A DNA stretch of 64,000 bases, taken from contig JABSQZ010000003.1 in assembly GCA_013215505.1 (NCBI GenBank), positions 62,001 to 126,000 on the forward strand. The letters are read 5' to 3'. Made by a program: the position numbers and the translations under genes. This stretch comes from Oceanospirillaceae bacterium (GTDB lineage Bacteria; Pseudomonadota; Gammaproteobacteria; Pseudomonadales; Balneatricaceae). The first letter of the stretch is position 1; every line of letters starts with the position of its first letter. A model generated the notes under the pieces. The model worked only from the letters and a program-made list of their open reading frames with translations, was not told where the DNA came from and did not search any database. Shown here piece by piece: positions 13,299-58,210 of this stretch.

Positions 13299-14353
13299 TA
13301 ACTGATAAAATTGTTAAGACCCCTGTACGGATAGGGATGGTTAGTTTCGCTCATTATCACGCAAATTTCTGGTCCGAAATTTGGCGGGACTCCGCCGAAG
13401 CAGAATTCATAGGTATCTGGGATGCCGATGAAATACGCGGCAGAGAAATGGCCGCTAAATACAACGTTTCGTTTATTACTGATTTAGAAGACCTTTTGAG
13501 TCGTGTTGACGCAATCGGATTGTGCAATGAGACTTCAGCCCATGCCGATGTGATCGAAAAAGCTGCTGCAAAAGGTGTACATGTTCTTTGTGAAAAACCT
13601 CTAGCAACGTCGCGTGAGGCCTATCAGAAAATCACCAGTGTGGTGAATAATTCGGGAATTGTATTTCAACAAAGTTACCCCAAACGGCATGATCCAATTA
13701 ACCATGAAATCAAACGTCTGATCGATGAGGGTGCTCTTGGGCGTATAACGTTAATGCGCGTCCGCCATTGCCACTATTATGGTCTAGACCCAGAATTCAA
13801 GGATGAATGGCACACTAATGCCTCGTTATCGGGAGGCGGGGCGTTAATCGATGAAGGTGTACATGGTGCTGATTTGATTCGTTGGTTCATGGGTGACCCG
13901 GTATTTGTAATGGCCATGCTTTCAGATGATGCCGCTCAAATGGGTGTAGATGATTTGGGTTTGGCGGTCTTCAGATTTGCAAATGGATCACTTGCAGAAC
14001 TGGTGTCTTCGTCAACAATTCTCGCGGCAGAATCCTCAGTCGAGATTTTTGGAACTAAGGGCAGCGTCCTTCTATCAGGCGTTGATTTGGCTTCCAAAGA
14101 TTTTTCGCCAGATAAGAGTTTGAAGATTTATACAGATAATAATCCGCGCGGTTCGTGGACGGTACCGAATATTATTTCGCAATTCAAAAAAGGTGAATTT
14201 CATCAACAAAACGCTCTGAGCTTTCTCAAGACTTTAATCAACGGAACACCGCCTCCGGTGACTTTGTTGGACGGAGGTCGTTCTCTGGAAATGATTCTTT
14301 CAGCGTATGAAGCAGCTAATTCTGGTCGAACCGTTACCATTTCATACGCCTAG
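13295..14353 (+). CDS. Gfo/Idh/MocA family oxidoreductase, second
   Basis: A 352-residue paralogue of the gene before it. The ATG at 13295 overlaps the preceding TGA (ATGA), preferred over a GTG at 13259 that would lie inside the previous gene. Landmarks are VRIGMVSFAHYHANFWSEIW (the nucleotide loop is unusual, lacking the GxGxxG glycines), LCEKPLATSREAY with the active-site EKP, and SGGGALIDEGVHGADLIRWFMG. The degenerate nucleotide loop could mean altered cofactor binding. It is the last gene of the operon; nothing recognisable follows until the first island junction at 14,548. Confidence 0.86.
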   Translation: MITDKIVKTPVRIGMVSFAHYHANFWSEIWRDSAEAEFIGIWDADEIRGREMAAKYNVSFITDLEDLLSRVDAIGLCNETSAHADVIEKAAAKGVHVLCEKPLATSREAYQKITSVVNNSGIVFQQSYPKRHDPINHEIKRLIDEGALGRITLMRVRHCHYYGLDPEFKDEWHTNASLSGGGALIDEGVHGADLIRWFMGDPVFVMAMLSDDAAQMGVDDLGLAVFRFANGSLAELVSSSTILAAESSVEIFGTKGSVLLSGVDLASKDFSPDKSLKIYTDNNPRGSWTVPNIISQFKKGEFHQQNALSFLKTLINGTPPPVTLLDGGRSLEMILSAYEAANSGRTVTISYA

Positions 14354-14547
14354 CCCAAACCAAGAAAAATTGAGAAATAAAGAAATGTCAGATTAAAAAA
14401 CGTTATCATTTTGCCTATCTATAGCGTTTTGATTCTTTGGAAATATTTAGATATACGCGAACGCTTGATCAGCCGGTGTGTAGCCGCTGCCATCTAAAGT
14501 TTCGATGATGACTGCTAAATTGGCCGTAAGTTTAATAGGTCCTGTTT

Positions 14548-14646
14548 ATTTGGTGGAGGTGGCGTCTACTGAATAATAGTAATAATCAATTGAAATTATT
14601 GAATTAAATTTTTTTAAAATTAGTTTATGCCCCCAGTTATACCCCC
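14548..14646. other. Island junction A: attachment core plus arm-type repeats (left end of island 1)
   Basis: ATTTGGTGG, 9 nt, CTACTGAAT at 14548-14574. Within it TGGTGGAGGTGGCG (14551-14564) is identical to the first 14 bases of the T-arm/acceptor-like sequence at 61137. The repeat pair TGCCCCCAGTTATACCCCC lies at 14628-14646. Junctions B and C have the same order; the distance from CTACTG to the pair is 62 bases here and at B. I read this as a former integrase attachment end. Confidence 0.7.
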
Positions 14647-15683
14647 TCTAGTGCTTTGTACATCTCAGTGTTCTGGTGATTAGGTTTTAGCATTCATTGA
14701 ACTAAAATTTTAGGGACATGGATTATAAGCATTATCTCAAACTCGAAAAGTAACCCTGTGGAGATCGTAGCAGAGCAGTGCAATGAATTCTGATCTGTTA
14801 TGTTAACCAAGGCTTCCCCAGAGAATGAACAGATAAGAACTCTAGAAAAAAGCATCGTATAAAAAAGATTGTTTTAATAGGCACAGGGCTTACATGTTGG
14901 CTAAAAGGGCTGTTCCTTAATTTATTAATTCGATGTTAAATTAGATAATTTAATAAAAAATGAGATTTTCATATAGGAGTACTGTAGGTACGTATATAGG
15001 AAATCACGAATACAATATTTAAAAATTACCAAAAGAGGCGTTGAAGTACTTCAATTGGTTAAGAGATCTTCTGAAAAACATGTTAATTATCAACGTTTAA
15101 AAAAATAAGATATTAACGCAGAACACTTTGCTGAAAATGAGCAATGTATCTCTCCCGACAACAATATAACGACAGTTGATAATGGTGGTATAAACGTTTG
15201 TTGGTTTTATTTAAAAGTATGATATAAATCCCGTCTTGCTATTTTATCAAATGAGATAAACTTTATATCGGGGGTCTCACTTAGTGGCAGTAGTTGGAAA
15301 TTAACGAATACACATGAACAGCCCTGATATTATGTTTGGAAGCATTGGATAAAACAAATAAAACAAATAAAACAGATAAAAAGTCACAATCAGTGTCTTG
15401 AAAAAATACATTTTGATTTGGTTGCCCGCAGGAGTTGACCTGATATAAAGCAGGCAAACTTCAACTGTTAAAGGCCGCGGTATTATTCTAAGTTAAATGT
15501 TTTATAGTCAGTAAGTATAAAATAGAGTGGCCACCTTTTTGCAATGAAATGTGCAACAGTATGATCTCTAAGTAAATCACTATCGACAAACAGGTATCTT
15601 TAACGTAGCATAAATTTTCATAAAAATAATCCTTCGATAAATTCGGAGCGATTCATTTGGCGCATAAGTAAAGGATTACACAA
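14647..15683. other. AT-rich left end of island 1, no gene seen
   Basis: About 1 kb between the junction and the protease gene. A short A-rich direct repeat (AAAACAAAT three times with variation) sits near 15352-15382. No recognisable gene. Confidence 0.5.
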
Positions 15684-16817
15684 ATGCAAGAAGCCATTTC
15701 GCTAAAAGATTTGTTAATAATTAGAAATGCTAATAGAGCTAAAATTGAAGCCATTAATGGTAATCTCGGATCCGCATTAGGCATAAAAAAAACGACGAAT
15801 CCTAACGATCCCGAGAATGGGAAACCAGCAATTCTAGTTTTTGTCCCCCAGAAAATCGCACCCAAATGGGTGGAACCTAATCAGCAAATACCTAAAAAAA
15901 TGACTGGTCCTGGCGGTTTATACTGCTGTGTAGATGTGGTCGAGGGCAGTAAACTTACAGATTATAATCTATTATTCCAGGATGCTGGTGGCAACTCTCA
16001 GTTGGTAAACTGGACGACTCTAAGAGGGCTACCAGAGTTATCTGATCCTCAGTTGAAAATTAGAGATCAATTGAGGGGTTGGGGAGAAACTATAACCCCT
16101 GGTGCGCAAATTGCAGCTGAGACGATACATGGTGGATGGTATGGGACACTAGCATGTTTCGCGTGCGAGCGTAATACTGAAAAAATCGGGTTAGTCACTA
16201 ATCAGCATGTAGCCAATAAAGTCGGTCAGTCTCTTTATTTTGCATCTACTAAAGCAAGGAAACTAGCGACAGTTACTAAAACATTTGAGTACGTCACTGA
16301 TGAGAAGAGATTCGGGGGGCTTATAAATGAGGCAGAAGCTTTTTATCGCATTGATTGCGCATTTGCACCTTTGGATCAATCATTTAATGCTATAGATTTT
16401 GATCCTAGAATTCCAGTGATTCAAGAAGATGGAACGATAGTGAATAAAACAATGGGTGGAACTTTCAAGTTTGACATCGAAACAATGAATCCAATCGGGC
16501 AGCGAGTTATCGGAGTTGGTAGGACTATGTCTCATCAAAAAGGGACTATTACTGCTTTCGGTTATGAGTTTCAAGACGAAAACGGTGTTAATTTATATAC
16601 TGATTATCTGATAGTAGGGGATGACCCTAGCCAATTTAGTGCGCCAGGTGATAGCGGAAAATTAATTCTCACTGATGAAGAAGAGCCCAGACCTATTGCT
16701 CTTCTTTGGGGGGGGTGGATAGAACGACTTTCGAACCATCAAGGACAGCGCGATTGGACTTATGCAATAGATATTAACTTTGTTTTGGATACATTAGATG
16801 TCGATATAATCAAATAA
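15684..16817 (+). CDS. Trypsin-like serine protease
   Basis: A 377-residue protein without an obvious signal peptide. The chymotrypsin-type triad can be placed: VTNQHVA gives His at about 175, YRIDCAFA gives Asp at about 224, and APGDSGKLIL gives Ser at about 324. The N-terminal 100 residues contain PAILVFVPQKI, seen ahead of the catalytic domain in other bacterial trypsin-like proteins. AAAGGA lies ten bases ahead of the ATG. It sits 34 bases upstream of the LodA-like gene on the same strand, so the two are likely co-transcribed. It may process or regulate that enzyme, or be an independent part of the system. The linkage is what I see; the role is inference. Confidence 0.82.
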   Translation: MQEAISLKDLLIIRNANRAKIEAINGNLGSALGIKKTTNPNDPENGKPAILVFVPQKIAPKWVEPNQQIPKKMTGPGGLYCCVDVVEGSKLTDYNLLFQDAGGNSQLVNWTTLRGLPELSDPQLKIRDQLRGWGETITPGAQIAAETIHGGWYGTLACFACERNTEKIGLVTNQHVANKVGQSLYFASTKARKLATVTKTFEYVTDEKRFGGLINEAEAFYRIDCAFAPLDQSFNAIDFDPRIPVIQEDGTIVNKTMGGTFKFDIETMNPIGQRVIGVGRTMSHQKGTITAFGYEFQDENGVNLYTDYLIVGDDPSQFSAPGDSGKLILTDEEEPRPIALLWGGWIERLSNHQGQRDWTYAIDINFVLDTLDVDIIK

Positions 16818-16851: not shown

Positions 16852-19800
16852 ATGCGAAAAAAAGAACCAACTAAAAATAAAGATAAAACGGTTTCGTATT
16901 GCAGAATTTTTCCTTCAATCGGTATTGCTAGGATTGGAAATAGCCCAAGTGAATACTTTATAGGACCGGAGGCCCCAGGCGAACCAGCAGAACCTGATGG
17001 TGGCTATAAAGATAGCAAAGGGCGAATGAAAAAACAGGCTGCTCGGTTCAGAATTTTCGGTTTCAATCAGGCTGGTCAAAATTTAGGTGAGATAACTTCA
17101 GATATTGGGACAATGAATTGGACGGTCTCAGTAGAAAATAAAAAAGCTGATTGGTGGCAATTTTCTGGTGCTGAAAACGTACAAAATATATTAAACATAG
17201 ATGAGCCATTGCCTGAAAAAGGTGGTAAGCGGAATGCTGCAATTAAAGGGGCTCAGCGTAAAGGTCTGTCTATTAAGCCAGAACCAGTGTCAATAGAGGG
17301 GGTGCATAAAGTATCAAAACTAATGCAAGGTAAGTTCCTTGACTATCAGTACCCAATAACTCTTGGCCAGTGTAGAACAGATGAGAAAGGGCGCTTAATT
17401 TTCACAGGAGGGGATGGTAAATCTGATTCCGTTAGAGGTAAGGACTCTACATTTCTTATAAGTTATGCGAACAATGATTGGTGGTTTGATGATACCTCTG
17501 ACGGGACTGTGAAATGTGAAGTGGTAATTGGCAATAGTAAGGTTGAAGTAAAGGGAGCGGCATCAGTCATTGTCGCCCCTCCAGATTACTCACCACACAC
17601 AAAAAATGTTGTATCTCTTTACGATGTATTCATACAGAGCATTGATGATTTAAATTTAGAGTGGCCTGAGAACGAATTAGGTGTTAAGCCGGATCATGAA
17701 AAATTAACATTTATGATGGATATATATCCCATTCTTCGGCGAACAGGAGATTATCGATGGGTTAATGCAAAAGCATACCAAGCGCATGGAAGGGAACGTT
17801 TAGCTGACTTCATTCCATTCGATCAACTGGTAAAACTTGCCAACCCAGAATTGGCCAGAAAAACTAACTCTATCCAAAAGGGGATTTTTAAACATATAAG
17901 AAACCCAAATTTGGATAGCAACTCCTACGAAGCGGGAAACCAAGCAAACCTCTCTTTTATGCCCCCGCTATCGGGTGATGAAGGCACCATAACATTAGGT
18001 GAACCGGATACATGGCTTAAATTGACAAAAAATCAGTACGCGGCACTCGAAAAGTGGAGTAATGGCGAATTTGAAAATGATTTACCATCGAGTGAACAAG
18101 AATTGAAAAAGAGCGAAGCAAGGATAGGTAATATAAATGAATATGATGTTTGTGATCAGCCATTAGCATTAATCCGATCAGCGCTAGAAGCTTGTGAAGG
18201 CGGGGCTTTTTATCCAGGAATTGAAATAACATCCGTTGTACGACACTCAAAATTTTATAGCGAGGCATTTCGGGTAGACCCATCTTGGATGCCTGGAGAT
18301 ATATCAAAGTGGATGGCGTTACCGTGGCAAGCTGATTTTAATGACTGTAGTGACAATTGGTGGCCCGCTGTGCGTCCTGACGATGTCATTACAGAAAATT
18401 ATTTTAATGAAGTTGTGTCTAAACTGTACAGTTCAGATTCTAACAAAGACATTTATCGGGCTTTGGTTAGACGAGAGAAATGGACAAGAGGCATAGGTGT
18501 AAGATACGGTGGTTTTAATTTTGGAAGTTCAACAACTTTGCCAATACCTTTACAGAATATGAAATCTGCCGAGGAATATAAAGCTTACGCAGAGGCAACG
18601 CTTTCAAGATTCTCTTCAATTTATATTGGAAATCTTCCACGATTGAGGGACGAAGAATTTCATGAGAATTACCTTCGTAGAGTTAGAAATTTTCTAACTA
18701 GTACTATCGGCGCTGCAGATCTGGAGTTAGATGATATCCTTCCAGGCGCACCGGTTATAGTCAGAGAATACCTTGAGACTAAAGTCAAAAAGTATCTTAA
18801 TCAGCATATAACCTTTTCAAAGCCGATGTCAGGCGTTAGCATCGAAGACTACTTTGAAGCTGAATCCAGGCGCGTTAAAACAGAACCAGTTATACAAGGT
18901 GTGTTTGATGTAACCTGGCAAACTCAAAATTCAGATAATATTTGCGCAAAAAACGAATTGGTAGATGCATGGAGTGAACTAGGTGTCGTATCAAAACGGG
19001 ACACACCTGCAGGTGAAGTTGTCTTAGTAGAAGTCGGCCGTGATAAGTATGCAAGGCTGCAGTGGCGTGATTACTTCCACACCCTTATGAATATTGAAGA
19101 TCATCAAGATTTCTTACCAAAAGCTAAAGAATTGGCTGAAGAGTTTTTACAACAAGCAAGAAATTTGATAATCAGCCAGACGAGTGGTAGCAAATATGAA
19201 CGGTTTAAATACTCCAAAATAGCGCTAGACTCTAAACTTGAACAAATATACGAAAAGAATCGTAAAGATGTAGCGGGGTATAACCCAGCTGTTGCCCCAG
19301 GCTTCTTTGATACAGAAGAAAAAATTATTGAAAGAATTCGACAGCTTTCACCATTTAACCAATTGGATGGTGGTTGGTTGCAGCGAGTCACTCCTGCCGG
19401 GAATTCGACAAAATTGCAAGGGTTGCTGTTTCAAATATGGATGGACGAGTTGGGTAATGGTGACCCCGCCCAAAATCATGCAAATGTTTATTCAGATCTA
19501 ATGCGAAGTGCAGGCATCTACTATTCCAAAGTAGATACAAAAGAATATTCTGAAAACCCCGAACTATGGGATGATATGTTTAGTGGCTCTGTTTATCATA
19601 CATCCATATCGCTTTTCCCAGAAACTTTTTACCCCGAAATACTCGGTATGACTTTGTATTTAGAGTGGGAAGCGAATGCACTGCAGAGAATGGTTTCTCT
19701 TTATGAATACTATGGATTCTCATCTTTGTTCTACAAACTTCATGTAGCAATTGATAATGCTGTCGATGGTCATGGAGCTATGGCTAAGAGAATTGTTGAG

Positions 19801-20850
19801 TTATACCTAGACGAAGTTCGCAACGAAAGTGGGGAAGTGGGGGTACAAGATCATTGGGAACGAATATGGGATGGCTATGTCGCTTTTGCCACAGGAGGAG
19901 TGCAGCGCTGGCAATTTGATATAAATAACCCTAAGACGCCAAGAGAAAGAGTAATAGAGCTAATTATTAAAAAAAGGCACTATGGCTCATTAAGCCATCA
20001 CGACAAAAAGCTAGGGTCTGCGCGTATAAACGCACTCTTTGATGAGCCAGATATGTTCTTAACCGAGCTTGAAAACTCAAACTATATTGTTCCAGGCAAC
20101 CCTGAAGATAGTTTGTTTATAAAAATGACTAATCCTGACGGTGTGATGTATAGGGTATTCGGGGAAGAAGAGATTGATGAATGGAAACAATGGATTCGAT
20201 CTCTACCTTCACCCGCAGATAGCTCAGGATTACCAATAGGTGATCAAATGGTAATATTATTGAAGCGGATGGGGGCCAAAGGCGTAGCTGCTATCGAGCA
20301 TGGTTCTTATTGTTTGTCGGGACCTAATCCTGATGTGCCAATGAATGACTGGAACAAATCTGATTTATATGTGAATAAACCGGTGACATGGTGGTTCCAG
20401 CTACTACGCAGAAAACCGATTGGTAAAAAAGTTAGGGATATTCATTTTGCTGCGTTCATGAGAGCGATGGCAAATCAGGAAAACGGTTGGATTGTACCTG
20501 GTAACCCAGAAGAAAGCCGTTTTACAAACGAGCTTTTGAAAGAAGGGGCAATGGGTGAAGCTCTGAGGAAAACAAGGCCATTACTAGGTCATGTTAGAGG
20601 TGCAGAAATTATTAAAAAATGGATAGTGGAGGGTTGCCCAGACCCCGTTTCGGTGAGTGAGCCTATAGCTGAAAATTCTACTGGCAATGAGAGTATCTCA
20701 GGAATTAAAAATCATGAGAGGCATAATCGACTAGTTGAAACCCTAGAAAACATGCTGTCGTTAAGAAGCGAAACAATTCCGGAGCGGATAGCACGCACCG
20801 GCGGTGCGTGTTCTAATGGTCTCGGGCCCGCTATGGGCTGCGTACAATAA
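16852..20850 (+). CDS. LodA/GoxA-type CTQ oxidase fused to a heme-oxygenase-like diiron domain
   Basis: A 1332-residue protein, about twice normal LodA length. Residues 1-640 are LodA/GoxA-like: IFPSIGIARIGNSPSEYFIG opens the domain, then KKQAARFRIFGFNQAG. CEGGAFYPGIEI carries the likely crosslinked Cys (about 448) and DCSDNWWPAVRPDD the Trp (503 or 504) that become cysteine tryptophylquinone. LodA oxidises the lysine epsilon-amine and GoxA oxidises glycine, both releasing hydrogen peroxide. Residues about 836-1060 look like a heme-oxygenase-like diiron oxidase: LYLEWEAN, then LHVAIDNAVDGHGAMAKR with His/Asp ligands. The C-terminus has two modules starting VPGNPEDS (about 1080) and VPGNPEES (about 1214). 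Substrate unknown. A LodB-like flavoprotein gene faces it six bases downstream. Confidence 0.85.
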   Translation: MRKKEPTKNKDKTVSYCRIFPSIGIARIGNSPSEYFIGPEAPGEPAEPDGGYKDSKGRMKKQAARFRIFGFNQAGQNLGEITSDIGTMNWTVSVENKKADWWQFSGAENVQNILNIDEPLPEKGGKRNAAIKGAQRKGLSIKPEPVSIEGVHKVSKLMQGKFLDYQYPITLGQCRTDEKGRLIFTGGDGKSDSVRGKDSTFLISYANNDWWFDDTSDGTVKCEVVIGNSKVEVKGAASVIVAPPDYSPHTKNVVSLYDVFIQSIDDLNLEWPENELGVKPDHEKLTFMMDIYPILRRTGDYRWVNAKAYQAHGRERLADFIPFDQLVKLANPELARKTNSIQKGIFKHIRNPNLDSNSYEAGNQANLSFMPPLSGDEGTITLGEPDTWLKLTKNQYAALEKWSNGEFENDLPSSEQELKKSEARIGNINEYDVCDQPLALIRSALEACEGGAFYPGIEITSVVRHSKFYSEAFRVDPSWMPGDISKWMALPWQADFNDCSDNWWPAVRPDDVITENYFNEVVSKLYSSDSNKDIYRALVRREKWTRGIGVRYGGFNFGSSTTLPIPLQNMKSAEEYKAYAEATLSRFSSIYIGNLPRLRDEEFHENYLRRVRNFLTSTIGAADLELDDILPGAPVIVREYLETKVKKYLNQHITFSKPMSGVSIEDYFEAESRRVKTEPVIQGVFDVTWQTQNSDNICAKNELVDAWSELGVVSKRDTPAGEVVLVEVGRDKYARLQWRDYFHTLMNIEDHQDFLPKAKELAEEFLQQARNLIISQTSGSKYERFKYSKIALDSKLEQIYEKNRKDVAGYNPAVAPGFFDTEEKIIERIRQLSPFNQLDGGWLQRVTPAGNSTKLQGLLFQIWMDELGNGDPAQNHANVYSDLMRSAGIYYSKVDTKEYSENPELWDDMFSGSVYHTSISLFPETFYPEILGMTLYLEWEANALQRMVSLYEYYGFSSLFYKLHVAIDNAVDGHGAMAKRIVELYLDEVRNESGEVGVQDHWERIWDGYVAFATGGVQRWQFDINNPKTPRERVIELIIKKRHYGSLSHHDKKLGSARINALFDEPDMFLTELENSNYIVPGNPEDSLFIKMTNPDGVMYRVFGEEEIDEWKQWIRSLPSPADSSGLPIGDQMVILLKRMGAKGVAAIEHGSYCLSGPNPDVPMNDWNKSDLYVNKPVTWWFQLLRRKPIGKKVRDIHFAAFMRAMANQENGWIVPGNPEESRFTNELLKEGAMGEALRKTRPLLGHVRGAEIIKKWIVEGCPDPVSVSEPIAENSTGNESISGIKNHERHNRLVETLENMLSLRSETIPERIARTGGACSNGLGPAMGCVQ

Positions 20851-20855: not shown

Positions 20856-21941
20856 TTAGGGCTGACGAAGCTGCCAAAACGACGATGACCATCTATTCTC
20901 TAGTGAGTAAACGGAATCCCGTTTACTCAGGTAGTTGAAGTAGCTTTGTTCTATTTCCTCAACAAATTGGCTTTGAATGTTCGAATTGTCTTCATACTCT
21001 ACTAAAGCTTTTGCGAAAGTGGCCCCGTCCAGTAAGGCGTTGTGTATACCCTGAGACGATAAGGGATCGACTGTCCGTGCTGCGTCGCCTATGGCAACCC
21101 AGTTCTTTAGTCCAATGTTTTTCAGTTTAGTACTGGCTGCAGAGAAATTTGTGATTTTATTCAGTTCCTCACCTCCCTCCACTAGTTGATTTACCCACGA
21201 AGTCTCGGAAATTTGCTGTAGAAAAATGGATGGCGCTTTAATTTTTCGTGCTATTCCATCGTGCGCGTCAGAGAATCTAGCTACAACTCTTTTATCAGAA
21301 AAGTTTGAAGCTGTGTACCACCAACCAGTGTTAATAGATTCAATTAAGCTCATATCATGAGATAAAGTTGTATTTGCAGTGGTATGTGTAAAACCATCTG
21401 AAAGCGAGGCAATTAGGCGATCATAATGTTGTATTTTTGAGTATCTGCGTGATAAAAAACGATGTCTTCCTGTAGCATCAATAAAAAAGTCAGCAGATAT
21501 TGAATGCGACGAGCCTACAATATCGCTGAATGAAACATCAGTAATGTGGCCATTAGATTTTTCGGACAAGCTCACTTTACGAACCCCGTAATAAATTGGC
21601 ACAGTTGGTGATAAAATATTTCTGAAATGATCTACCAATTTGAATTTACTAATGAGAAGACCATAAGAAGGGATAGATGACGAGAAAGATCGGGTATCAA
21701 TACCTGCATGCCCCCAGCTGGATTGAACGCCAAAGATTTTTTTACCGAAAGTGTCGTGCTTTTCACTGAGAAGGAGTTCGCTAAGCAGTAATGATGATTC
21801 AGGTGGTAGAGTTTCCCCAAAATCCAAAGTAGATTGATTAGCATTGCTTTTTTCGATGATTATACATCCTATACCTTTTCTAATAAGCTCTAATGCGCAA
21901 GCGCAACCGGCGACACCCGCACCAAATATTATAACTACCAT
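20856..21941 (-). CDS. LodB-type FAD-dependent oxidoreductase
   Basis: A 361-residue flavoprotein. The FAD-binding beta-alpha-beta loop is VVIIFGAGVAGCACALELI at the very start, and the second FAD motif is WVAIGDAARTVDPLSSQGIHNAL near residue 275, as in tryptophan-halogenase/GG-reductase-like monooxygenases. LodB proteins of this class modify the partner LodA during formation of the CTQ cofactor. It converges on the LodA-like gene with only a six-base gap, so it is on the opposite strand and not in one operon, which is less usual than the co-directional lodAB pairs I know. Its start at 21941 gives the Rossmann motif immediately. Confidence 0.82.
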   Translation of the reverse strand: MVVIIFGAGVAGCACALELIRKGIGCIIIEKSNANQSTLDFGETLPPESSLLLSELLLSEKHDTFGKKIFGVQSSWGHAGIDTRSFSSSIPSYGLLISKFKLVDHFRNILSPTVPIYYGVRKVSLSEKSNGHITDVSFSDIVGSSHSISADFFIDATGRHRFLSRRYSKIQHYDRLIASLSDGFTHTTANTTLSHDMSLIESINTGWWYTASNFSDKRVVARFSDAHDGIARKIKAPSIFLQQISETSWVNQLVEGGEELNKITNFSAASTKLKNIGLKNWVAIGDAARTVDPLSSQGIHNALLDGATFAKALVEYEDNSNIQSQFVEEIEQSYFNYLSKRDSVYSLENRWSSSFWQLRQP

Positions 21942-23646: not shown

Positions 23647-25008
23647 ATGAAAATAAAAATAATAATCCCACTAGTCATAACGTTATTATCTATTAATAGC
23701 TATGCAGATGAGTGCAATACATTCACTAAGAGCACTTTGAATATTCCGGATAACGTAAAGAAGACTATCTTAAGTCTGAATTATCCAGAGCAATCGAAGA
23801 GTTTTATGCCTTGGCTTTCAGAAAATTTCGAAGAAGACTGGAAGAAATATATGACAGTGGTGTTGAGCTCAATAGAATCTGATGTCTCTTTTGAAAATGA
23901 GAAAATCACTCTAGTTAATTATGAAAAATGGTTCTCATCACCTTGGATGGATTATGGGAATGCAGGTAGGGAACCTTTGAATGGCCTCACGAGAGAAAGA
24001 GGACCTAGACCTAAAGATGTTGCCCCAAATAGCCCAGGAGGTGGGCAGGTATGGGCAGTTGGATGGTACAACGATGTTGCATCGACAACCCTATCGGAAG
24101 TGTTTAAGAACCCTTGTGATCCAGTTATTGATAGTGATTTTTCGTTTAGCGAGGGATCGGTTGCAATTAAATTTTTATTTACGACCTTAGATGAAAATGC
24201 AATTCCTTATTTAAAAGGGTCCCCAACTATTAAATCTTATATCGACCCTTCAAATATTGCAGGAAGAGGAAGGCCCAATCAAAGAGTTATTTCTACTTTG
24301 AGATTGCTACAAGTTGACATAGCTGTAAAGGATAAACGTGCTTTAGACACAGGTTGGGTTTTTGGGACTTTTGCTTGGATGAATTCTGCCAGTAAAACTG
24401 TATTTGATAGCTTAGTTCCAGTATCGCTAGCATGGGGAGACGATCCTGCTGTTTATAATGATGATATAAAGCAATCAAGGATCAACACTGAATTGCATGG
24501 ATTAATGTTTGGTTGGGATGAGCGACCGTTTCTTGGCTTTATGGGAAGAGCAAATGGTCCAGCTGATAATGCTATATCTTCATGTATTTCATGCCATGGC
24601 TCAGCTCAATTTCCTCGTCCCAAAATTGGAAATTTGGATACGAGAACCTCAGTACAAAGTGCTATGAAAAACTTCAATGTGCGTAAAAAGCTTGTGGATT
24701 CCCGCTTTGTTAATCAGCCAGCTGGTTCGTTGTTTGATGATAGTATAAAAGGAGCTGTTGGTATGGATTATTCTTTACAATTGCAAGCAGGCATAGAAAG
24801 GCTTTGTGAAGCATGGTGTAATGGAGATTTGATTGGGGAACCCAGCTTGTGTAAATTAGATACAGGTTTTAGGTATACACCAGCACGGTGCGATACTTTA
24901 AAAGGCTTTTCTAATAATAAATTTCTTAGGCTGAAGCCTGAGGCATTTATAAAAGAAAACTTACCAAATTCAGAGATTCAAAAACTACTTGATAATCCAA
25001 GAGGGTAA
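23647..25008 (+). CDS. Secreted single-heme c-type cytochrome-like protein
   Basis: A 453-residue protein with a signal peptide (IIIPLVITLLSINSYADEC, cleavage after about residue 20). A single heme-attachment motif CISCHG lies at about residue 313 within SSCISCHGSAQFPRPK. The bulk of the chain has WFSSPWMDYGNAGREPLNGLTRERGP and GWVFGTFAWMNSASK, which I associate with a family of periplasmic proteins with one C-terminal CxxCH and no described function. It probably acts in periplasmic electron transfer. The gene stands alone, 1.7 kb from lodB. Whether it serves the LodA-like system is not shown by the sequence. Confidence 0.75.
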   Translation: MKIKIIIPLVITLLSINSYADECNTFTKSTLNIPDNVKKTILSLNYPEQSKSFMPWLSENFEEDWKKYMTVVLSSIESDVSFENEKITLVNYEKWFSSPWMDYGNAGREPLNGLTRERGPRPKDVAPNSPGGGQVWAVGWYNDVASTTLSEVFKNPCDPVIDSDFSFSEGSVAIKFLFTTLDENAIPYLKGSPTIKSYIDPSNIAGRGRPNQRVISTLRLLQVDIAVKDKRALDTGWVFGTFAWMNSASKTVFDSLVPVSLAWGDDPAVYNDDIKQSRINTELHGLMFGWDERPFLGFMGRANGPADNAISSCISCHGSAQFPRPKIGNLDTRTSVQSAMKNFNVRKKLVDSRFVNQPAGSLFDDSIKGAVGMDYSLQLQAGIERLCEAWCNGDLIGEPSLCKLDTGFRYTPARCDTLKGFSNNKFLRLKPEAFIKENLPNSEIQKLLDNPRG

Positions 25009-25372
25009 GTGCATAAAAACAATATTTTTGTGTTCAGGGAGATTAGGCTGGAGACGTGTATTTCCCTTGGCACTTCTCTGTTTTACAATAAAGAGAGGAA
25101 CAAAAAAAATTTTTGGTATAACAGCTATTTGTTCGAAAATATCAATTTTTATTCATTTTTATATTTATTGGTTAAATCCTCTAAGGATTACATTGTTAAA
25201 ATTTGGTGGTGTTAAAGTAGGACAATTTTAGTATTGTATTAGTGTAAGTCTTTGGATATAAGAAAAAATATTGATTTATCTGAGACCTAATAACTTATCT
25301 CGTAGTAAGTGGAAGTTTATAATAATATATTATCATGTGATTTTACATTTTAAATTAAATATTGAGGTTTTT

Positions 25373-26293
25373 ATGAGTAACTTAGAACAATGGAAAAATA
25401 AAACTGTTGAAGAATTGATTAGTCGGCCAAAGCTTGAACTTTCATCTCAAGAGATGGAAAGAAGAAAAATATATTCTTCGTTGTTATTTGCAATCACAGC
25501 ATATTATTTTAATGGGAATAAATATGGGGATAATAATGAGTACCCATTTAGTCCAAATAATGAAAATAGTGATAGTTATTATGGTCATAATATAGCTGCA
25601 CTTGCAGTAGATAAATATGGGGAAGTTTGGGATTTTGAATTTAACCATAATAAGCTTTTTAGTAGCTCTGTAGAACATGCTGAATCTAGGTTGATTAGGC
25701 GAGTTTTTTCACTTACTCAAGTTCATAACTCCTGGAAATTAGATTCTCAAGAACCCCCTAAAAGGTACGGAAACTTGTTGTCTGAAGTTTCTGTTTATAC
25801 AACTCTGGAATCTTGTACTCAATGTACAGGTATTATGACGTTAGGTAATGTAAAAAACATTGTATACTTGCAAGATGATCCAGGCATGTATCACATAGGG
25901 AATATAGTTAAAAATTTAACTGAAGGCCAGGGGTTTATTGAAGCACCATTACCTATATCTGGTGCTGAGATAGGCTTTGATCTATATGACCAACTGAACC
26001 ATGCATTTCTATTGTTTAAAGCACAACAAAGAACTAAAGAAGGTCTCCCTTTTGTTATTTACCCTGATGGCGAAAAACGTTTCACATCATCTATTACATC
26101 ATTCCTTTGCACCGAAACAGCATATAATATCTTTAGAAAAGGTCTAAATAATCTAGAGGAATTAGAATTGGCCTATGGTGATTTTAAACCAATTGAAAAA
26201 GCTCTTTCAAATAAAGAAGTCTTAGACGAATGTGTCAGTTTTTATAAGTATGCTACATCTATGGGGAAAAGAGGAACGCCTCATCGTATGTAG
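25373..26293 (+). CDS. Cytidine/deoxycytidylate deaminase-fold protein
   Basis: A 306-residue protein starting at the ATG at 25373, where GAGG lies upstream and the soluble sequence begins; the frame open from 25271 adds an AT-rich hydrophobic tail that is probably not translated. The zinc site of the CDA fold can be read as SSVEHAESRLIRR (HAE, about residue 100) and TTLESCTQCTGIM (SCTQC in place of PCxxC, about residue 148). It is much longer than housekeeping cytidine deaminases, with about 150 residues after the zinc site. Stand-alone deaminases in islands can be toxins, nucleotide-depleting defence enzymes or tRNA/antibiotic-biosynthesis enzymes. Nothing here decides between them. Codon use is very AT-rich. 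Confidence 0.65.
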   Translation: MSNLEQWKNKTVEELISRPKLELSSQEMERRKIYSSLLFAITAYYFNGNKYGDNNEYPFSPNNENSDSYYGHNIAALAVDKYGEVWDFEFNHNKLFSSSVEHAESRLIRRVFSLTQVHNSWKLDSQEPPKRYGNLLSEVSVYTTLESCTQCTGIMTLGNVKNIVYLQDDPGMYHIGNIVKNLTEGQGFIEAPLPISGAEIGFDLYDQLNHAFLLFKAQQRTKEGLPFVIYPDGEKRFTSSITSFLCTETAYNIFRKGLNNLEELELAYGDFKPIEKALSNKEVLDECVSFYKYATSMGKRGTPHRM

Positions 26294-28553: not shown

Positions 28554-29675
28554 ATGATTTATTTAGATACAGCAGCATCTTCGCCAATACTACCAGAAGT
28601 TAAAGACACCTTATTCCAGGCATTTGAAAACTCTTATGCGAACTCTGCTTCTAGTCATCTACTTGGGGAGCAAGTCTCGAATGAGATTGATCAAGTTAGG
28701 GAGTTATTAGCTGATTCTATAGGGGCGTACCCCAGTGAAATCATTTTTACTAGTGGTGCTACTGAGTCTAATAATATTGCATTTAAAAGCTTACTTTTAG
28801 GCGGCGATATACCTTCTGATAAAAAGCATATCATCACAACACATATAGAACATAAATGTATATTAGCAATTTGTGATTACTTCGTGACACTTGGTTATCA
28901 GATTACTTATCTCAAACCCAATAAATATGGGATTATTGAAGCCGCAGCAGTGGCTTCAGCAATCCGAGCAGACACCGCACTTGTCTCTGTTATGCAGGTA
29001 AACAATGAGCTTGGAAGCATTAATCCTATTGCTGAGATAGGGGAGGTGTGTTGTAAGAGTGATGTGTTATTCCATAGCGACGCAGCGCAAAGCTATGGCA
29101 AGGTTGATATAGATGTTGATGATTTAAATGTCGATGTAATGTCATTTTCTGCACACAAAATTGGTGGCCCAAAAGGGATAGGTGCCGTTTATATACGCGA
29201 TTTACGTAAGAGAAAGCTGATGCCGGTGATTCACGGCGCTGGACAAGAAGAAGGGCTAAGAGGAGGGACTGTTGCCGCACCTCTGATCATAGCTTACGGC
29301 ACTGCGATTACTGTGTTTCCGGATTATTACGAACAATTCAAATCAATAGGTGCTAAAGAGTATTTAATCGGACAACTGACAGATTATGGAATTAGCTATA
29401 ACATCAACGGCTCCGGAGATTGCCTACCCAGTTGCTTATCGTTAACTCTCTCTGCGACCAACATAAGTTTGTTAATCAGGGACAATGAAAATGAATTTTG
29501 CTTAGCCCAAGGGTCAGCCTGCTCGTCTAGGGAAATAGAAGCTTCCCATGTATTAACTGCACTAGATCTGACGAGAGAATTAGCAGAGAACACATTACGT
29601 ATAAGTTTTCCATTAGACATCCTAAAAAAGAACTTAGATGCGTTAGTCTTAGCCATTAAAAAAGCGGCTATATAG
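28554..29675 (+). CDS. sspA: Cysteine desulfurase of the DNA phosphorothioation system (SspA/DndA-like)
   Basis: A 373-residue PLP enzyme of the IscS/NifS class. YLDTAASSPILPEV opens the fold. HIEHKCIL carries the histidine stacking on PLP, SFSAHKIGGPKGIG the Schiff-base lysine (about residue 202), and AQGSACSSREIE the catalytic cysteine (about residue 324). It takes sulfur from cysteine and passes it on as persulfide. Next to SspD, SspC and SspB it is best read as the sulfur donor for backbone sulfur insertion in DNA. It is transcribed toward the sspD gene and ends in a shared palindromic terminator. That it supplies the Ssp proteins rather than Fe-S assembly is inferred from context; no iscU-like genes are near. 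Confidence 0.87.
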   Translation: MIYLDTAASSPILPEVKDTLFQAFENSYANSASSHLLGEQVSNEIDQVRELLADSIGAYPSEIIFTSGATESNNIAFKSLLLGGDIPSDKKHIITTHIEHKCILAICDYFVTLGYQITYLKPNKYGIIEAAAVASAIRADTALVSVMQVNNELGSINPIAEIGEVCCKSDVLFHSDAAQSYGKVDIDVDDLNVDVMSFSAHKIGGPKGIGAVYIRDLRKRKLMPVIHGAGQEEGLRGGTVAAPLIIAYGTAITVFPDYYEQFKSIGAKEYLIGQLTDYGISYNINGSGDCLPSCLSLTLSATNISLLIRDNENEFCLAQGSACSSREIEASHVLTALDLTRELAENTLRISFPLDILKKNLDALVLAIKKAAI

Positions 29676-29681
29676 CCGCTT
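29662..29681. terminator. Bidirectional terminator between sspA and sspD
   Basis: AAGCGGCTA (29662-29670) and TAGCCGCTT (29673-29681) form a perfect inverted repeat around two bases. An A run lies on its left, giving a T tail for the leftward transcript. It includes the sspA stop codon and lies 12 bases from the sspD stop. Confidence 0.7.
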
Positions 29682-29692
29682 AATAGATCGAG

Positions 29693-30586
29693 TTATTTGT
29701 AACAGGTCACGCAGGCCCCGCCGCCTTCTGCATCATCGTATATTTCATCGAGATCACAAAATTCAGAAGTGCCATCTTCGTCAGTCAGTAGGGCATTTCT
29801 GCGTTTTTTCTTAGCAAATCTGGCCAATTTTTTCTCATGATTTTCTTTGATACGTTTTTGCATGTCAGGGCTTTCCAAAATTTCTAATGGTTGACCTTTA
29901 CCCATCCAGTAGAATTTCTCACCGACCACATTGTTACCTTCGCCCTTTTCAAAAGCTTTTGCTTCCTCGAATAAATGAGGATGCTTTTCGAGTAGTTTGA
30001 CCCACTCGATTTTCCGCTGATAAAAACAAAATGTACAACCTGACCTCGATCGCCATTCATAATAAGCAGGCAATTCTAATCCATTTCTTTGCAGTATGTT
30101 GACGATATCACTTTTTACAATACCGTCTTCTCGAAAAGGAAATATAGAATCAATTGGTTTCTCAATTGTCATATAACCTACACGTTCAGGCTCATCTGCT
30201 CTTATGCCAACGTAGTTTTTAATACGATAGCCATCTTTGATGTAACCGTCTAACCAGCGCTCAAAAGGTTTAAGCTTTAGCTGTACAGTGCACCATCTAT
30301 CCCTTTGCGAAGGTAAGTAATTACCATGTCCCTTGAGCATATGAGCAAAGTCTTTTTCACCGCGACCTTCCATGTTATTCATTGAGCGAGCGTTCAGTCT
30401 GTGAATATACCCAAGTTTATCTTCTAGTTGGTCGATAAACTCATTGGTTTCAGGCAATTCATAACCTGTGTCGGTAAAGAAATATTCAACGTCCAAATCA
30501 GGCCTGGTTTCTTTCACATATAGCGCTAGTGCACTACTATCCTTGCCGCCAGATAACCCAAGAACATGCTTAATTTTTTCAGCCAT
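29693..30586 (-). CDS. sspD: ATP pyrophosphatase/PAPS-reductase-like phosphorothioation protein (SspD-like)
   Basis: A 297-residue adenine-nucleotide alpha-hydrolase-fold protein. The PP-loop is VLGLSGGKDSSALALYV at residues about 8-24. Cysteines at WCTVQLK (about residue 98), RSGCTFCFYQRKIEW (about 182-185) and the C-terminal GGACVTCYK could bind a cluster or carry sulfur. SspD, like DndC, activates the DNA backbone phosphate with ATP so that sulfur can be inserted. It starts eight bases after the end of sspC in one leftward operon sspB-sspC-sspD, the order known for SspBCD. Confidence 0.85.
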   Translation of the reverse strand: MAEKIKHVLGLSGGKDSSALALYVKETRPDLDVEYFFTDTGYELPETNEFIDQLEDKLGYIHRLNARSMNNMEGRGEKDFAHMLKGHGNYLPSQRDRWCTVQLKLKPFERWLDGYIKDGYRIKNYVGIRADEPERVGYMTIEKPIDSIFPFREDGIVKSDIVNILQRNGLELPAYYEWRSRSGCTFCFYQRKIEWVKLLEKHPHLFEEAKAFEKGEGNNVVGEKFYWMGKGQPLEILESPDMQKRIKENHEKKLARFAKKKRRNALLTDEDGTSEFCDLDEIYDDAEGGGACVTCYK

Positions 30587-30594
30587 GTTTTAGC

Positions 30595-33500
30595 CTATGC
30601 TTCTTCCATTAAATTTGACATTAGGCGTGCTAATGTTGCGAGTTGTTTTTCTTTTGAGATATTAGCAATAGACTGTTGGATATCATTAACGGCTGCCTTT
30701 ACTTCTATATCGTTATGAAGATCGTATTTGATAAAGCCGCTATACTCTTTATATGCGCCAGCACTATCAGTAGTCATAAAAGCTAAAGGTTGGGTAGTTT
30801 TTTTATTGCTAATATTACTTAAAGACTCAATACGTCTGAACTGAACACATAAATTTTGTAATTCATCTAAGCCATTTCTTAAGTGCTTATCGGTCCATTT
30901 TGGATCGGGAACACCGGCGGCGAGGTTAATGATAAGTTCGAAAGAACCATTACCTTCAATAAATTTAATAAGGCGTGAAGCTAGTTCTTTAACATTGGGT
31001 CGCTGAGCCATAGTCACAATAATCTCACAGCGCGCCTTCAAGTCATTATCAAAATCAGCAGCTAAACCAGACTTAATGATCTGTTTAAAACCTGACAACA
31101 ACATATCATGTTGTGCGGATAAATCTTCTATCGCTGTTTTTAAACTGTGTGCTAATTTCGCATCTGCATCGGGATCTTTCAAATCAACATCAAAAACGCT
31201 AGGTAGGTCCTCAAGTATTAATTTATATGGATCACTTGCCCCAATAACTTTATTGCGGAAGGCTCTAGCTTGGTTGGTTAACCCACCAGAGGTTTGATTG
31301 TTAGAGATGTTCTCACCGCTGGTTTTTTTAACCCAGGTAGGTAAGGTATGAACAATTTTAACAATATGTTTAGCAATGCTTAAAATTGTATCGCTTGATT
31401 CTATTTTCCCCACTGTCGCCTTGGCCAAAGTATCTAGAAGGTGCGTTTGAATTTCAGATATTTCGAAATACCTGACACCTGCTTCAGCAGGGCGCTTATA
31501 GATTTTGGTAATCAATTCTTCATCTAATTCAGGTATGAATAACCACTGCTGTGTTATATCGTAATCATAAAAAGCAATATGCCCTTCTAATGATTTTAAA
31601 AGAGCTAGGCCGTAAATTTTACATAAACCTGTAGTTAGGCCAAAAGGTGGACGCATCCATCTTTGATATAACTCTTCTAGTGTGACCCGTGACCCACTTG
31701 ATTTAATAAAATCTACACCATCTTGCCACAGACTTTGCATATTACTTTCAATAGTCTCAGGTAGGCCTCGCCAGTTACTTGGAAACAAGTAGCCTTCCTC
31801 TGTTTCGCAATGCCAGCCTTTACTTTTTAAGCATGATAGATAGATACCTTTTTCAGGAGGGCAAGTATTATCGTCAAAGCCTAAGTCTTTCTTATCCCCA
31901 TTCTCTAACATTTTGTTCATTAACTTAAGAATAGCGCTGTTTGCACTGCCTGAAGGCTTAGACCTGTTTACTAGTTCGTTAAGAACTTCTGGAGCAAGGT
32001 AGTATATTTCGTCTGCTATTTTGGATGCACTAACAGACAATGGCTGATGCTTTAATTTCTGACCTTGATGTGACCACTGAGCTCGTCTGAAAACAAGTTC
32101 TAGTTCTATAGCTACATTTTGATTGGCTAGAATAATACGGTGTTCTATTTCATTCTTTGCGATTAGATCGTGATTGATTTTTTTTTCATGTTTTTCGATC
32201 TGGCGTAATGCGATAAGTTCAATAGCAACTGCTTTAAGGTTATCTAAGTTATCCGCTTCCCCTAATACAGCGTAAGGTGAATCCTCGCATTGCTTGGTAA
32301 GCTCTTTTGCAACGTTTGCATTGGCAGGTATCAAGAAGTTTGCAAACGCTTCGCCTGTGATAGGAGGCTTCTTCAGGCTCTCTAGCAGTGTAGAATCTAT
32401 CTTGCTGATGAGGTGAGTATTAGCCCAACGCATAGTGCCGGTTCGGTGATAGTGAGCGGTGGCTAAAATGTTTTGAGATTTGTCGCAAACATTTGTCCAA
32501 TCAACACCGTCACTAACAACTTCAATACGTTCAAGTACTAAATTGTGGATGTCTATATCGCTACCTTGAAAGACAAACAAAGCATCATGTTTTTGCCGAT
32601 ATATGATAATTGTCCAGGTTTCAAGATCTAATAGAGCATTTTCAACCTCAACAGGAGCATGATTCAGATGGGTGAAATATTTAACGATGAAATCACGCTT
32701 GGCATGCAAGTGATGATGGAAGCCGAAAATTGTGAGTAACGCAATTAATTTAGCAACTGCTACATGCAAATCACCGCCTTTTTGTGTTGCCCGGTATATC
32801 GCGTCGCACCCTTCAAGCCAAGCTTTGCTATCGTTAGAAGTAACAATTAAATGATGCAAGTTGTGATGCAAATAGTCCCACAACCGTGATGGGCTAAATA
32901 GTGCATATGTAGATATATCAGCACCATAGTTTTCTGCTAAAAACTCTCTGAATCCTAACTTCTCATGTGAAGATAGAAAGCCAAATATACTACGCTCATT
33001 TTGCGAAAATCTTCGCCTTGAAATCGGGCCAAGCAGTAAGCTAACTAAAGGATCAAGAGGTAGTGTTTTTGTAAGTGCTGAGATGTTCTTGCTTTGGTGA
33101 GTAAAAGTTGAAACGACATCATCTAATAAAGCTGAGTAGCGACTTTCAAGTAAACTGGTCACTTCCTCAGTTTTTTGTATTGAGTCCCCAACCAAAATAA
33201 GTGATTCATCAATTGAAGGGTTAAAGCTTAAATCGCTGTACCTACCCTGTACTTTTGCCCACTCTTTTTGTGCTATAGCATCTTTATTTCTAGCATAATC
33301 GGTAAAAGCTTGGTGTAGAAAACTTATTAATAATGTCGGTAAATCAGACTGTTGAGCAATATCAGCTAAAGATTGAAAGAGGTGTAAATCTTTATTTGCT
33401 CGAGATTGATAATCTAAAGCCTTACCCATTTCATCCAGCAGAATTAAGACACCATCTGCTTTCGTATTTTGTTTAGTAATAGTTGCTTTAATTCTTGCTA

Positions 33501-33984
33501 AGCATTCATCATCATCTAATAACTTAATTTCTTCTATATCATAATCTAGGTCGAACGCACCATAAGTACTCATCAAAATAGCATTTGCGGGCGACTCCAA
33601 ACCGCACACATGCTTGATTACTATCCAGCCTTTTTTAATTCCAAACCGGGAGGGGAATTCGTCTAACAATCCAAGTGTGCTACCTAGTTTTTGAGTGGCG
33701 TAGTCGCGCTCTTTTTTGTTAATAGATAATAAGCTAGATAAAAAAAGTGCAATAGTTGATTTACCTGATCCATAAGGTCCAGTTAAAGTGTAAGCACGTT
33801 GTGAGCTGCCAGCATAATCGCGACTGATAGTATCTAGTACATTGACGGCAGTGCCGTGCAGTATAAAATCATCAACAAAATGTTTAAAATCAGTTCCTTG
33901 AGTGTCTATTTTGACAGAGCTTTTATAACGTTGATTGATATTGATTGATTGCGAGGTCATATTATCGTGCGCCATATAGTTCAT
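30595..33984 (-). CDS. sspC: Large P-loop ATPase of the phosphorothioation system (SspC-like)
   Basis: A 1129-residue protein with a Walker A loop LTGPYGSGKSTIALFLSSLL near residue 70 and a likely Walker B at VLILLDEMGKALDY near residue 185. The remainder is long, helical and without other motifs I can name. SspC is the ATPase needed with SspB and SspD for single-strand phosphorothioation. The gene overlaps the end of sspB by 23 bases, so translation is coupled. Starts at residues 1, 4 or 9 are all possible because no clear ribosome site is present; the longest is given. The assignment rests on its position between DUF4007 and PP-loop genes plus its size and P-loop. Confidence 0.82.
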   Translation of the reverse strand: MNYMAHDNMTSQSININQRYKSSVKIDTQGTDFKHFVDDFILHGTAVNVLDTISRDYAGSSQRAYTLTGPYGSGKSTIALFLSSLLSINKKERDYATQKLGSTLGLLDEFPSRFGIKKGWIVIKHVCGLESPANAILMSTYGAFDLDYDIEEIKLLDDDECLARIKATITKQNTKADGVLILLDEMGKALDYQSRANKDLHLFQSLADIAQQSDLPTLLISFLHQAFTDYARNKDAIAQKEWAKVQGRYSDLSFNPSIDESLILVGDSIQKTEEVTSLLESRYSALLDDVVSTFTHQSKNISALTKTLPLDPLVSLLLGPISRRRFSQNERSIFGFLSSHEKLGFREFLAENYGADISTYALFSPSRLWDYLHHNLHHLIVTSNDSKAWLEGCDAIYRATQKGGDLHVAVAKLIALLTIFGFHHHLHAKRDFIVKYFTHLNHAPVEVENALLDLETWTIIIYRQKHDALFVFQGSDIDIHNLVLERIEVVSDGVDWTNVCDKSQNILATAHYHRTGTMRWANTHLISKIDSTLLESLKKPPITGEAFANFLIPANANVAKELTKQCEDSPYAVLGEADNLDNLKAVAIELIALRQIEKHEKKINHDLIAKNEIEHRIILANQNVAIELELVFRRAQWSHQGQKLKHQPLSVSASKIADEIYYLAPEVLNELVNRSKPSGSANSAILKLMNKMLENGDKKDLGFDDNTCPPEKGIYLSCLKSKGWHCETEEGYLFPSNWRGLPETIESNMQSLWQDGVDFIKSSGSRVTLEELYQRWMRPPFGLTTGLCKIYGLALLKSLEGHIAFYDYDITQQWLFIPELDEELITKIYKRPAEAGVRYFEISEIQTHLLDTLAKATVGKIESSDTILSIAKHIVKIVHTLPTWVKKTSGENISNNQTSGGLTNQARAFRNKVIGASDPYKLILEDLPSVFDVDLKDPDADAKLAHSLKTAIEDLSAQHDMLLSGFKQIIKSGLAADFDNDLKARCEIIVTMAQRPNVKELASRLIKFIEGNGSFELIINLAAGVPDPKWTDKHLRNGLDELQNLCVQFRRIESLSNISNKKTTQPLAFMTTDSAGAYKEYSGFIKYDLHNDIEVKAAVNDIQQSIANISKEKQLATLARLMSNLMEEA

Positions 33985-34909
33985 CTAAATAGAAATCAGG
34001 ATTTTCTAAAGTTTTTTGCGTCAGTTTTACTTGCCTTAAGCCAAGTGAATCTAACCATGAAACAGCGCCTTGCGTAAATTCTTGTGCTTCATCAAGCTTC
34101 TGCCCTAAGCCCGCCTCAGATAATCTAAAAATGCGACCAGGTGAATAAGGCTTACTCAGTAAAGCATCGAAGTTTACCGTGAAAATTTTAGAATCTTCAG
34201 TCTCAACCTGTGCAAATTTAACTAGGGCATAAATAAAAATTTCGATAGGTAAATCAGGTCTATCAGTCAAGTTGCTGACATAGTAACCACCGCCGTTATC
34301 TTGAACTAAATTGAGTTCAGCTAGCGGCGAATTGAAGTGATCTTCATCAACACTAAATTTCTTTTTTGCCGTTGTGCTTTTAAATTTCGTGCAGTATGTG
34401 CTTAAAAAGCAGTCAATGTCTTTCTTGAGAGTTGTCTCAATACCTATTTCATTAGTGACTAATCGTTGTGCGTCATCAGTAAAGTCAGTGACTAGTTTAG
34501 ATTTTTCAAAATGTTGAATGTTTGAAAAATTAAAAAAGTAACGGTAAGCAGTAAGGTGCTTGTAATTGAAATTCAACCAAAAATGTAGAAGCCATACAGA
34601 GGCAGAATTTTCTAAGTACGGATCTTTGCCTTGCACACTGCGGCTGCCAAAAAGATACGTACCTTGCGCAGAAACACTATGGCTAACAACGTTGTTTTTA
34701 TTCGTCATCGTTATAACGCTACTTGCTTCACCCCAGTAACGGATAGCATTAACCATATTTTTTCCGACACCAAGCTCCACAATCGCCTTGCGGGTACTTT
34801 CTTCGTTCGATGTTTGTAATTTCCCGCCTGAATTCAGATAGTTAATAGCTTTATATAACCATCCGTATCTTAATGAAAATGTATCGTGCCCGGTGAATTT
34901 AGCTTTCAT
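33962..34909 (-). CDS. sspB: DUF4007 family protein, phosphorothioation nickase (SspB-like)
   Basis: A 315-residue protein that begins KFTGHDTFSLRYGWLYKAIN and continues RKAIVELGVGKNMVNAIRYW, which are hallmarks of the DUF4007 family. SspB is described as the DNA-nicking component of single-strand phosphorothioation. It is first in the leftward sspBCD operon; the next gene overlaps its end. About 930 bases separate it from the divergent PLD-helicase gene. Confidence 0.87.
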   Translation of the reverse strand: MKAKFTGHDTFSLRYGWLYKAINYLNSGGKLQTSNEESTRKAIVELGVGKNMVNAIRYWGEASSVITMTNKNNVVSHSVSAQGTYLFGSRSVQGKDPYLENSASVWLLHFWLNFNYKHLTAYRYFFNFSNIQHFEKSKLVTDFTDDAQRLVTNEIGIETTLKKDIDCFLSTYCTKFKSTTAKKKFSVDEDHFNSPLAELNLVQDNGGGYYVSNLTDRPDLPIEIFIYALVKFAQVETEDSKIFTVNFDALLSKPYSPGRIFRLSEAGLGQKLDEAQEFTQGAVSWLDSLGLRQVKLTQKTLENPDFYLDELYGAR

Positions 34910-38028: not shown

Positions 38029-38261
38029 TGGCAAGAGATAGGAACGAAATACTACAGGAATTCTTGAAAAACGAGAAGTTATTGGAGCTGTTAGAAGTAG
38101 GGGCTTTAGATGCTGTAGATAATTCATTTAAAGATAAGTCAAAATATTTACTAGTCGAAGCTATAAAAAAGATGATACTTAGCTACAGCACAGAGGATAG
38201 TACTTCGCAGACCCTAAAAAAAATTAATGCCTTAATATCAACTGAGGTCAGGTCGTCATGA
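38028..38261 (+). CDS. Small protein between the helicase and the SMC-like ATPase
   Basis: A 77-residue charged helical protein (ILQEFLKNEKLLELLEVGAL, SKYLLVEAIKKMILSY). Its ATG overlaps the helicase stop by one base (TAATG) and its end overlaps the next ATG by four bases, with GGGGA ahead of the start. Such coupling marks a real gene, probably an accessory subunit. No family recognised. Confidence 0.65.
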   Translation: MARDRNEILQEFLKNEKLLELLEVGALDAVDNSFKDKSKYLLVEAIKKMILSYSTEDSTSQTLKKINALISTEVRSS

Positions 38262-58208: not shown

Positions 58209-58210
58209 GA

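Follow-up and report, generated by a model that had tools for sequence, protein, structure and literature searches.

The stretch analysed here, referred to as the window, comprises 64,000 nucleotides of contig JABSQZ010000003.1 (positions 62,001 to 126,000; assembly GCA_013215505.1) of an Oceanospirillaceae bacterium and carries, on the plus strand, a gene whose product joins a LodA-type quinoprotein oxidase to a heme-oxygenase-like domain. This gene is a single unbroken open reading frame of 1332 amino acids (aa) that occupies exactly positions 16852 to 20850, confirming the uninterrupted chain reported in a first-pass annotation of the raw sequence. Three Pfam domains exceed their gathering scores in the product, namely LodA_N (PF17990; residues 20-239, positions 16909-17568; E 1.8e-63), LodA_C (PF18417; residues 383-510, positions 17998-18381; E 4.3e-26) and Haem_oxygenas_2 (PF14518; residues 830-1005, positions 19339-19866; E 2.8e-18), the latter with 66.8 bits for a gathering score of 28.9. 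This third domain is the one shared by heme-oxygenase-like diiron oxidases (HDO) and is called the HDO domain below. It is followed by two modules, the first at ca. residues 1030-1124 (positions 19939-20223) and the second at ca. residues 1165-1269 (positions 20344-20658), each with a VPGNPE motif (at residues 1080 and 1215, respectively) as had already been noticed in the first pass. Profiles of the two modules, each built from four fusions, match one another with an hhalign probability of 97.5 and an E-value of 7.8e-12 in a single profile-to-profile comparison. Neither module matched a Pfam family above cut-off, and raising the threshold to E 10 returned only weak, unrelated matches; the VPGNP pattern may be reminiscent of cytochrome c-like domains in their C-terminal half, minus CXXCH. 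The first module also accompanies HDO domains outside LodA fusions, and both probably pack against the HDO domains next to which they occur.

Four other proteins display the same domain order, with LodA_N, LodA_C and PF14518 all confirmed by Pfam. Their identities to the window protein, counted over aligned columns, are 41.4% for a 1327-aa protein of genome G1406 (locus L158), which is the closest homologue found, 38.0% for a 1136-aa protein encoded on the Paraburkholderia caribensis plasmid NZ_CP013105.1 (L028; WP_082670604.1), 37.6% for a 1149-aa protein of Paraburkholderia sp. UYCP14C (L033) and 35.2% for a 1141-aa protein of Xanthobacter autotrophicus DSM 432 (L034). Two VPGNP modules were found in these relatives where checked. 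A five-way alignment of the fusions further delineates, between the two halves of the window protein, a linker or insert of 154 residues (residues 549-702, positions 18496-18957) that matches no Pfam family above cut-off and is common to L158 (149 residues), while only 16 residues occur at this place in L028, L033 and L034. At their C-termini, the four relatives share a similar G-x-G-x-x-H tail, from which the window protein differs by having two cysteines in its final 13 residues.

In LodA, the cofactor cysteine tryptophylquinone (CTQ) is formed from C516 and W581 (PMC4417212; numbering of LodA as in 3weu). In a phmmer alignment, the motif of the window protein that ends at residue 499 falls on LodA C516 and the next WWP on LodA residues 580-582, so that W581 corresponds to W504. 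The predicted CTQ site (positions 18334-18363, codons checked) is therefore composed of C499 (18346-18348) and W504 (18361-18363) together with the preceding D495, and these three residues are identical in all 27 rows when the window protein is aligned with 26 LodA-like proteins whose loci came from a genome-contig search. The tryptophan had been located at 503/504 in the first pass, in agreement with W504, while the cysteine had been placed at about 448; C448 is ruled out, as C499 is the residue that aligns with LodA C516 and as C448 occurs in only 16 of the 27 rows and is replaced by Thr in the closest homologue found. Cysteine and tryptophan are separated by 65 residues in LodA whereas their spacing is 5 in the window protein, a value shared with L033, L034, L046, L047 and L077; it ranges from 9 to 37 in the remaining 21 rows.

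An AlphaFold model of residues 1-1130 built from 27 alignment rows has a mean predicted local distance difference test (pLDDT) of 67.7, with a usable LodA half; of the 50 PDB matches that Foldseek returned for this half within an E-value limit of 0.001, every one is a crystal structure of LodA or GoxA (best 6.3e-26). A lodB-type gene lies next to the fusion gene (positions 20856-21941, minus strand); it encodes a 361-aa LodB/GoxB-type flavoprotein, the predicted CTQ maturase, which matches the NCBIfam models of LodB at 164 bits and of GoxB at 163 bits over the full length, below the equivalog cut-off of 400. With LodA_N and LodA_C, the CTQ Cys and Trp and a nearby lodB-type gene, the protein would belong to the LodA/GoxA family. 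It has in common with LodA (L-lysine 6-oxidase, 2ymw/3weu) and GoxA (glycine oxidase, 6byw) both LodA domains, the CTQ Cys and Trp, the preceding Asp and the adjacent lodB-type gene, and differs from them by the additional HDO domain and VPGNP modules. Among NCBIfam models, its LodA part is nearest to GoxA (336 bits, equivalog cut-off 750) followed by LodA (176 bits, cut-off 600), and because both scores are below cut-off, the fusion cannot be assigned an activity on glycine or on lysine. CTQ formation and hydrogen peroxide production by this half would be expected from what is known of these families.

Regarding the second half, the HDO motif has been described as E-H-E-H-(D/E)-H plus a seventh Glu, with the last three residues variably spaced (PMC11363339). 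Candidates for all the residues of this metal motif, including the seventh Glu, are present and conserved in the window protein. The candidate ligands are E866 and H876 (positions 19447-19479), E929 and E938 (19636-19665), and H964, D968 and H974 (19741-19773), which in an alignment of HDO domains are respectively kept in 31, 31, 35, 30, 32, 32 and 30 of the 36 rows. The E/H/D/H pattern read in the first pass was thus correct as far as it went and lacked part of this set. Among the seven histidines of residues 703-1030, only 876, 964 and 974 are conserved (30 to 32 rows), the next best being found in 6 rows, a contrast that exceeds chance. H974 would be the last His of the motif. The seven candidate metal residues, as well as D495, C499 and W504, are intact in the five fusions.

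Most of the ligand set is missing from six rows, which correspond to the N-terminal copies of five tandem HDO proteins (L018, L030, L031, L100 and L102) and, in L024, where the two copies are separate neighbouring genes, to the first of the pair. In these tandem proteins, which are ca. 700-800 aa long and about 740 aa under the annotation "iron-containing redox enzyme family protein", an HDO unit with its VPGNP module shows ca. 28-36% identity to residues 730-1020 of the window protein; the C-terminal copy keeps the metal ligands, and a degenerate HDO copy that has lost them occupies the N-terminal half, where the window protein has LodA. Two tandem HDO proteins sit among biosynthetic-type genes, such as those for SidA-type monooxygenases and ketoacyl-ACP synthases. 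Similarity to HDO oxidases such as SznF, RohS, UndA, BesC and FlcD, which have a PF14518-type domain like that of the window protein, is very weak, with the helix-1 motif aligning with SznF and RohS chains. When the HDO alignment was compared with solved structures, the matches were confined to the helix-1 region in chains of RohS and SznF (E 0.0086 to 0.5). E866 and H876 came to lie opposite residues 215 and 225 of SznF, two metal ligands, in a weak match (E 0.48) that ends before helix 3. No HDO chain matched when solved structures were searched with residues 700-1130 alone. By membership of its family, this half may be expected to house a diiron centre.

The full architecture was found in one of the 63 plasmid records with any match, in two of 45 genome-contig LodA loci (L033 and L034; a few of the 45 are truncated at contig ends) and in one of 377 genomes from the order of G604. 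These searches used the window protein as query and scored only the best candidates per genome, so that distant fusions or fusions with an N-terminal HDO domain could escape them. The window's own genome excepted, the architecture was not seen, judging by match ranges, in 57 relatives, 369 genomes of the class and 390 of the order (these counts include the own genome and overlap one another). LodA_N occurs in 12 of 398 genomes of the phylum, among which only the frame of the window exceeds 1100 aa. A domain scan of the LodA frames of L035, L048 and L013 (948 to 985 aa) showed no PF14518; the genomes of the order, judged by match ranges, include a frame of 1014 aa in G1122 and one of 1035 aa in G590. 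A single-protein scan of genome contigs and a scan of viral contigs each returned no relative, and a search of the own genome at E 0.001 found no second match to the fusion gene besides the self-match.

The pairing of LodA with pfam14518 was already listed in 2015. In their survey, Campillo-Brocal et al. (PMC4417212, Table 3) report five LodA-like proteins of 985-1413 aa with pfam14518, from Actinoplanes, Burkholderia BT03, Calothrix, Paenibacillus and Rhizobium STM6155, along with 21 LodA-like proteins carrying a catalase-fold domain. These five proteins combine the same two families in one chain, with pfam14518 in the N-terminal region by the description given in that survey, whereas it is C-terminal in the window protein. 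Because 21 proteins have a catalase-fold domain and five have pfam14518, redox partner domains recur on LodA-like proteins, and a redox partnership of LodA with the domains fused to it is plausible by analogy; the survey itself urges that such extra domains be studied experimentally. A search of the open-access literature, which leaves most subscription papers outside, found no characterised LodA-HDO fusion and, as far as it reached, no report of a function for one. The first-pass remark that the fusion was not a described enzyme hence holds for its function and does not for the pairing. We know of no HDO of the SznF, RohS, UndA, BesC or FlcD type fused to a CTQ oxidase, nor of a quinone-to-diiron relay within one chain.

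The profiles, homologues and conserved residues described above support the view, also expressed in the first-pass annotation, that a LodA-type oxidase is fused to a heme-oxygenase-like domain. The reading that we favour, with confidence somewhat better than even, is that of a two-site oxidase in which CTQ-dependent amine oxidation and diiron oxidation occur in the same chain. C499 and W504 would be converted to CTQ with the help of the neighbouring LodB-type flavoprotein, and the CTQ half would oxidise a primary amine to an imine or carbonyl compound while passing electrons to O2 to give hydrogen peroxide. The HDO half, as a diiron oxidase, would then use O2 or the peroxide from the CTQ half for a second oxidation, for instance an N-oxygenation or an oxidative bond cleavage, on the same compound or in the same pathway. 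On the identity of the substrate, on the nature of the second oxidation and on whether anything passes from one site to the other, this reading is guesswork. If the proposal is correct, the fusion is a candidate for the double oxidation of an amine by one enzyme, in two families that keep yielding unexpected oxidations and are usually studied separately.

Several observations weigh against the two-site oxidase. H974 lies 10 residues past H964, which departs from the canonical spacing of 7 for the last His of HDO motifs, and its place on a solved structure is not covered by the profile match, which ends short of helix 3. The AlphaFold model of residues 696-1332, derived from three sequences, has a mean pLDDT of 50.5, leaving the HDO half, for which a seven-helix heme-oxygenase-like fold would be expected, unusable, and in the model of residues 1-1130 the values for residues 841-970 range from 31 to 69 per ten-residue block. 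Foldseek returned for the modelled HDO half, a low-confidence model, no match at E of 0.001 or below, SznF appearing at E 1.8 with a probability of 0.15. A PF14518 match alone does not imply a diiron centre, because FlcD, an HDO, works with a single iron (PMC11363339). The orientation of the lodB gene of the window is unusual, as it converges with the fusion gene from the opposite strand at a distance of 5 bp, whereas each of the four relatives (L028, L033, L034 and L158) has a lodB-type gene directly downstream that is read in the direction of the fusion gene. Finally, the fusions did not group together in a quick LodA tree of 65 rows. The likelihood improved when they were constrained to do so, and this constrained tree is not rejected (approximately unbiased test, p 0.712), for which reason separate origins are not claimed. 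In the tree of HDO domains (36 rows), those of four fusions form one clade with support 99/97; L158, found later, is in neither tree. Since the HDO domains form a clade and the LodA domains are compatible with one, the two halves seem to have stayed joined while the lineages diverged widely, and the simplest reading, not a proven one, is that they were fused once, long before the present divergence.

A special case of the two-site oxidase is a peroxide-coupled enzyme in which the hydrogen peroxide made at the CTQ site feeds a diferric HDO site, dispensing with ferredoxin or any outside electron donor. Other diiron oxygenases are known to work through a peroxide shunt, and known HDOs use O2, a point that counts against this case. 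Peroxide is the known by-product of LodA/GoxA oxidases (PMC4417212), and the catalase-fold domains that are also fused to LodA-like proteins (21 cases, see above) are possible peroxide users. On balance we regard such coupling as unlikely; were it true, amine oxidation would supply peroxide on the spot for the second oxidation. With a peroxide-making quinoprotein and a probable dimetal oxidase in one chain, whether HDO enzymes use peroxide or O2 becomes a question that can be asked. The halves might conversely be enzymes that work independently of each other, joined so as to be co-expressed or co-localised, each at its own pathway step and with nothing transferred from one site to the other. 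HDO plus VPGNP units found without LodA in other proteins, and thus self-standing, are in line with this, as is the scarcity of HDO domains among LodA proteins (both present in only 2 of the 45 loci), whereas it counts against it that lineages far apart have retained the fusion, at 35-41% identity and with no ligand lost at either site. Mere tethering appears doubtful; were the halves independent, the fusion would still connect amine substrates with an HDO subfamily that is as yet uncharacterised.

The HDO domain could also be non-catalytic and have a structural, regulatory or peroxide-scavenging role. Such domains do exist, as shown by the N-terminal copies of five tandem HDO proteins, which no longer carry their ligands, and by the first L024 gene as a further ligand-less case, yet the copies found in the fusions are not degenerate and keep the seven residues in five of five; we consider a loss of catalysis quite improbable here. 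Lastly, the HDO domain might take part in building CTQ in its own chain, for instance by a first hydroxylation of W504, as CADD, another HDO, modifies its own chain. CTQ in LodA and GoxA requires LodB and GoxB, and the first Trp hydroxylation is only thought to be autocatalytic (PMC7876137), which would leave room for such a role. Most of the LodA-like proteins analysed nevertheless lack an in-frame HDO domain, L033 and L034 being the only ones among the 45 loci to have one, and this hypothesis is regarded as very improbable.

In the vicinity of the fusion gene, a gene on the plus strand (positions 15684-16817) that ends 34 bp upstream encodes a 377-aa Nal1-type trypsin-like serine protease with Nal1_N and Nal1_C domains, His, Asp and Ser motifs and a match to the PDB entry for Narrow Leaf 1 (E 3.8e-43). 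An S53 peptidase gene is located upstream of both Paraburkholderia fusions (L028 and L033), and no relative of either peptidase type was found in the stretches fetched around L034 and L158. Quinohemoprotein amine dehydrogenase (QHNDH) uses a subtilisin-like protease, QhpE (PMC7876137). By analogy, the upstream peptidase may be a maturation protease, which we mention as a lead only, the Nal1, S53 and QhpE families being different from one another. When the genes of the window (frames of at least 80 aa) were compared with 50 loci (L028-L077), no match besides the fusion and lodB was found in the fusion loci L028, L033 and L034, and scattered matches occurred in six other LodA loci only.

Other genes were observed around these loci. 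In L158, a gene of the di-haem cytochrome c peroxidase / MauG family (positions 14339-16006 of that locus) lies ca. 1 kb downstream of lodB. In the window, positions 23647-25008 encode a protein of 453 aa that starts with what looks like a signal peptide, has a single CXXCH haem motif and matches no Pfam family above cut-off, and positions 25271-26293 a 340-aa protein with weak deaminase matches below gathering scores. Further along, a phosphorothioation-type defence island (28554-40363) has strong matches over positions 28554-38028, first on the minus strand to an SspA-like cysteine desulfurase, SspD, SspC and SspB and next to a PbeA-like helicase, together with a weaker PbeC-like ATPase (38258-40363). 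A TIR_2-domain protein is encoded at positions 50046-50912, and a mobile-element remnant or satellite with a DUF5906/VapE-like primase, a Toprim_3 protein and an arm-binding phage integrase occupies positions 54575-60933.

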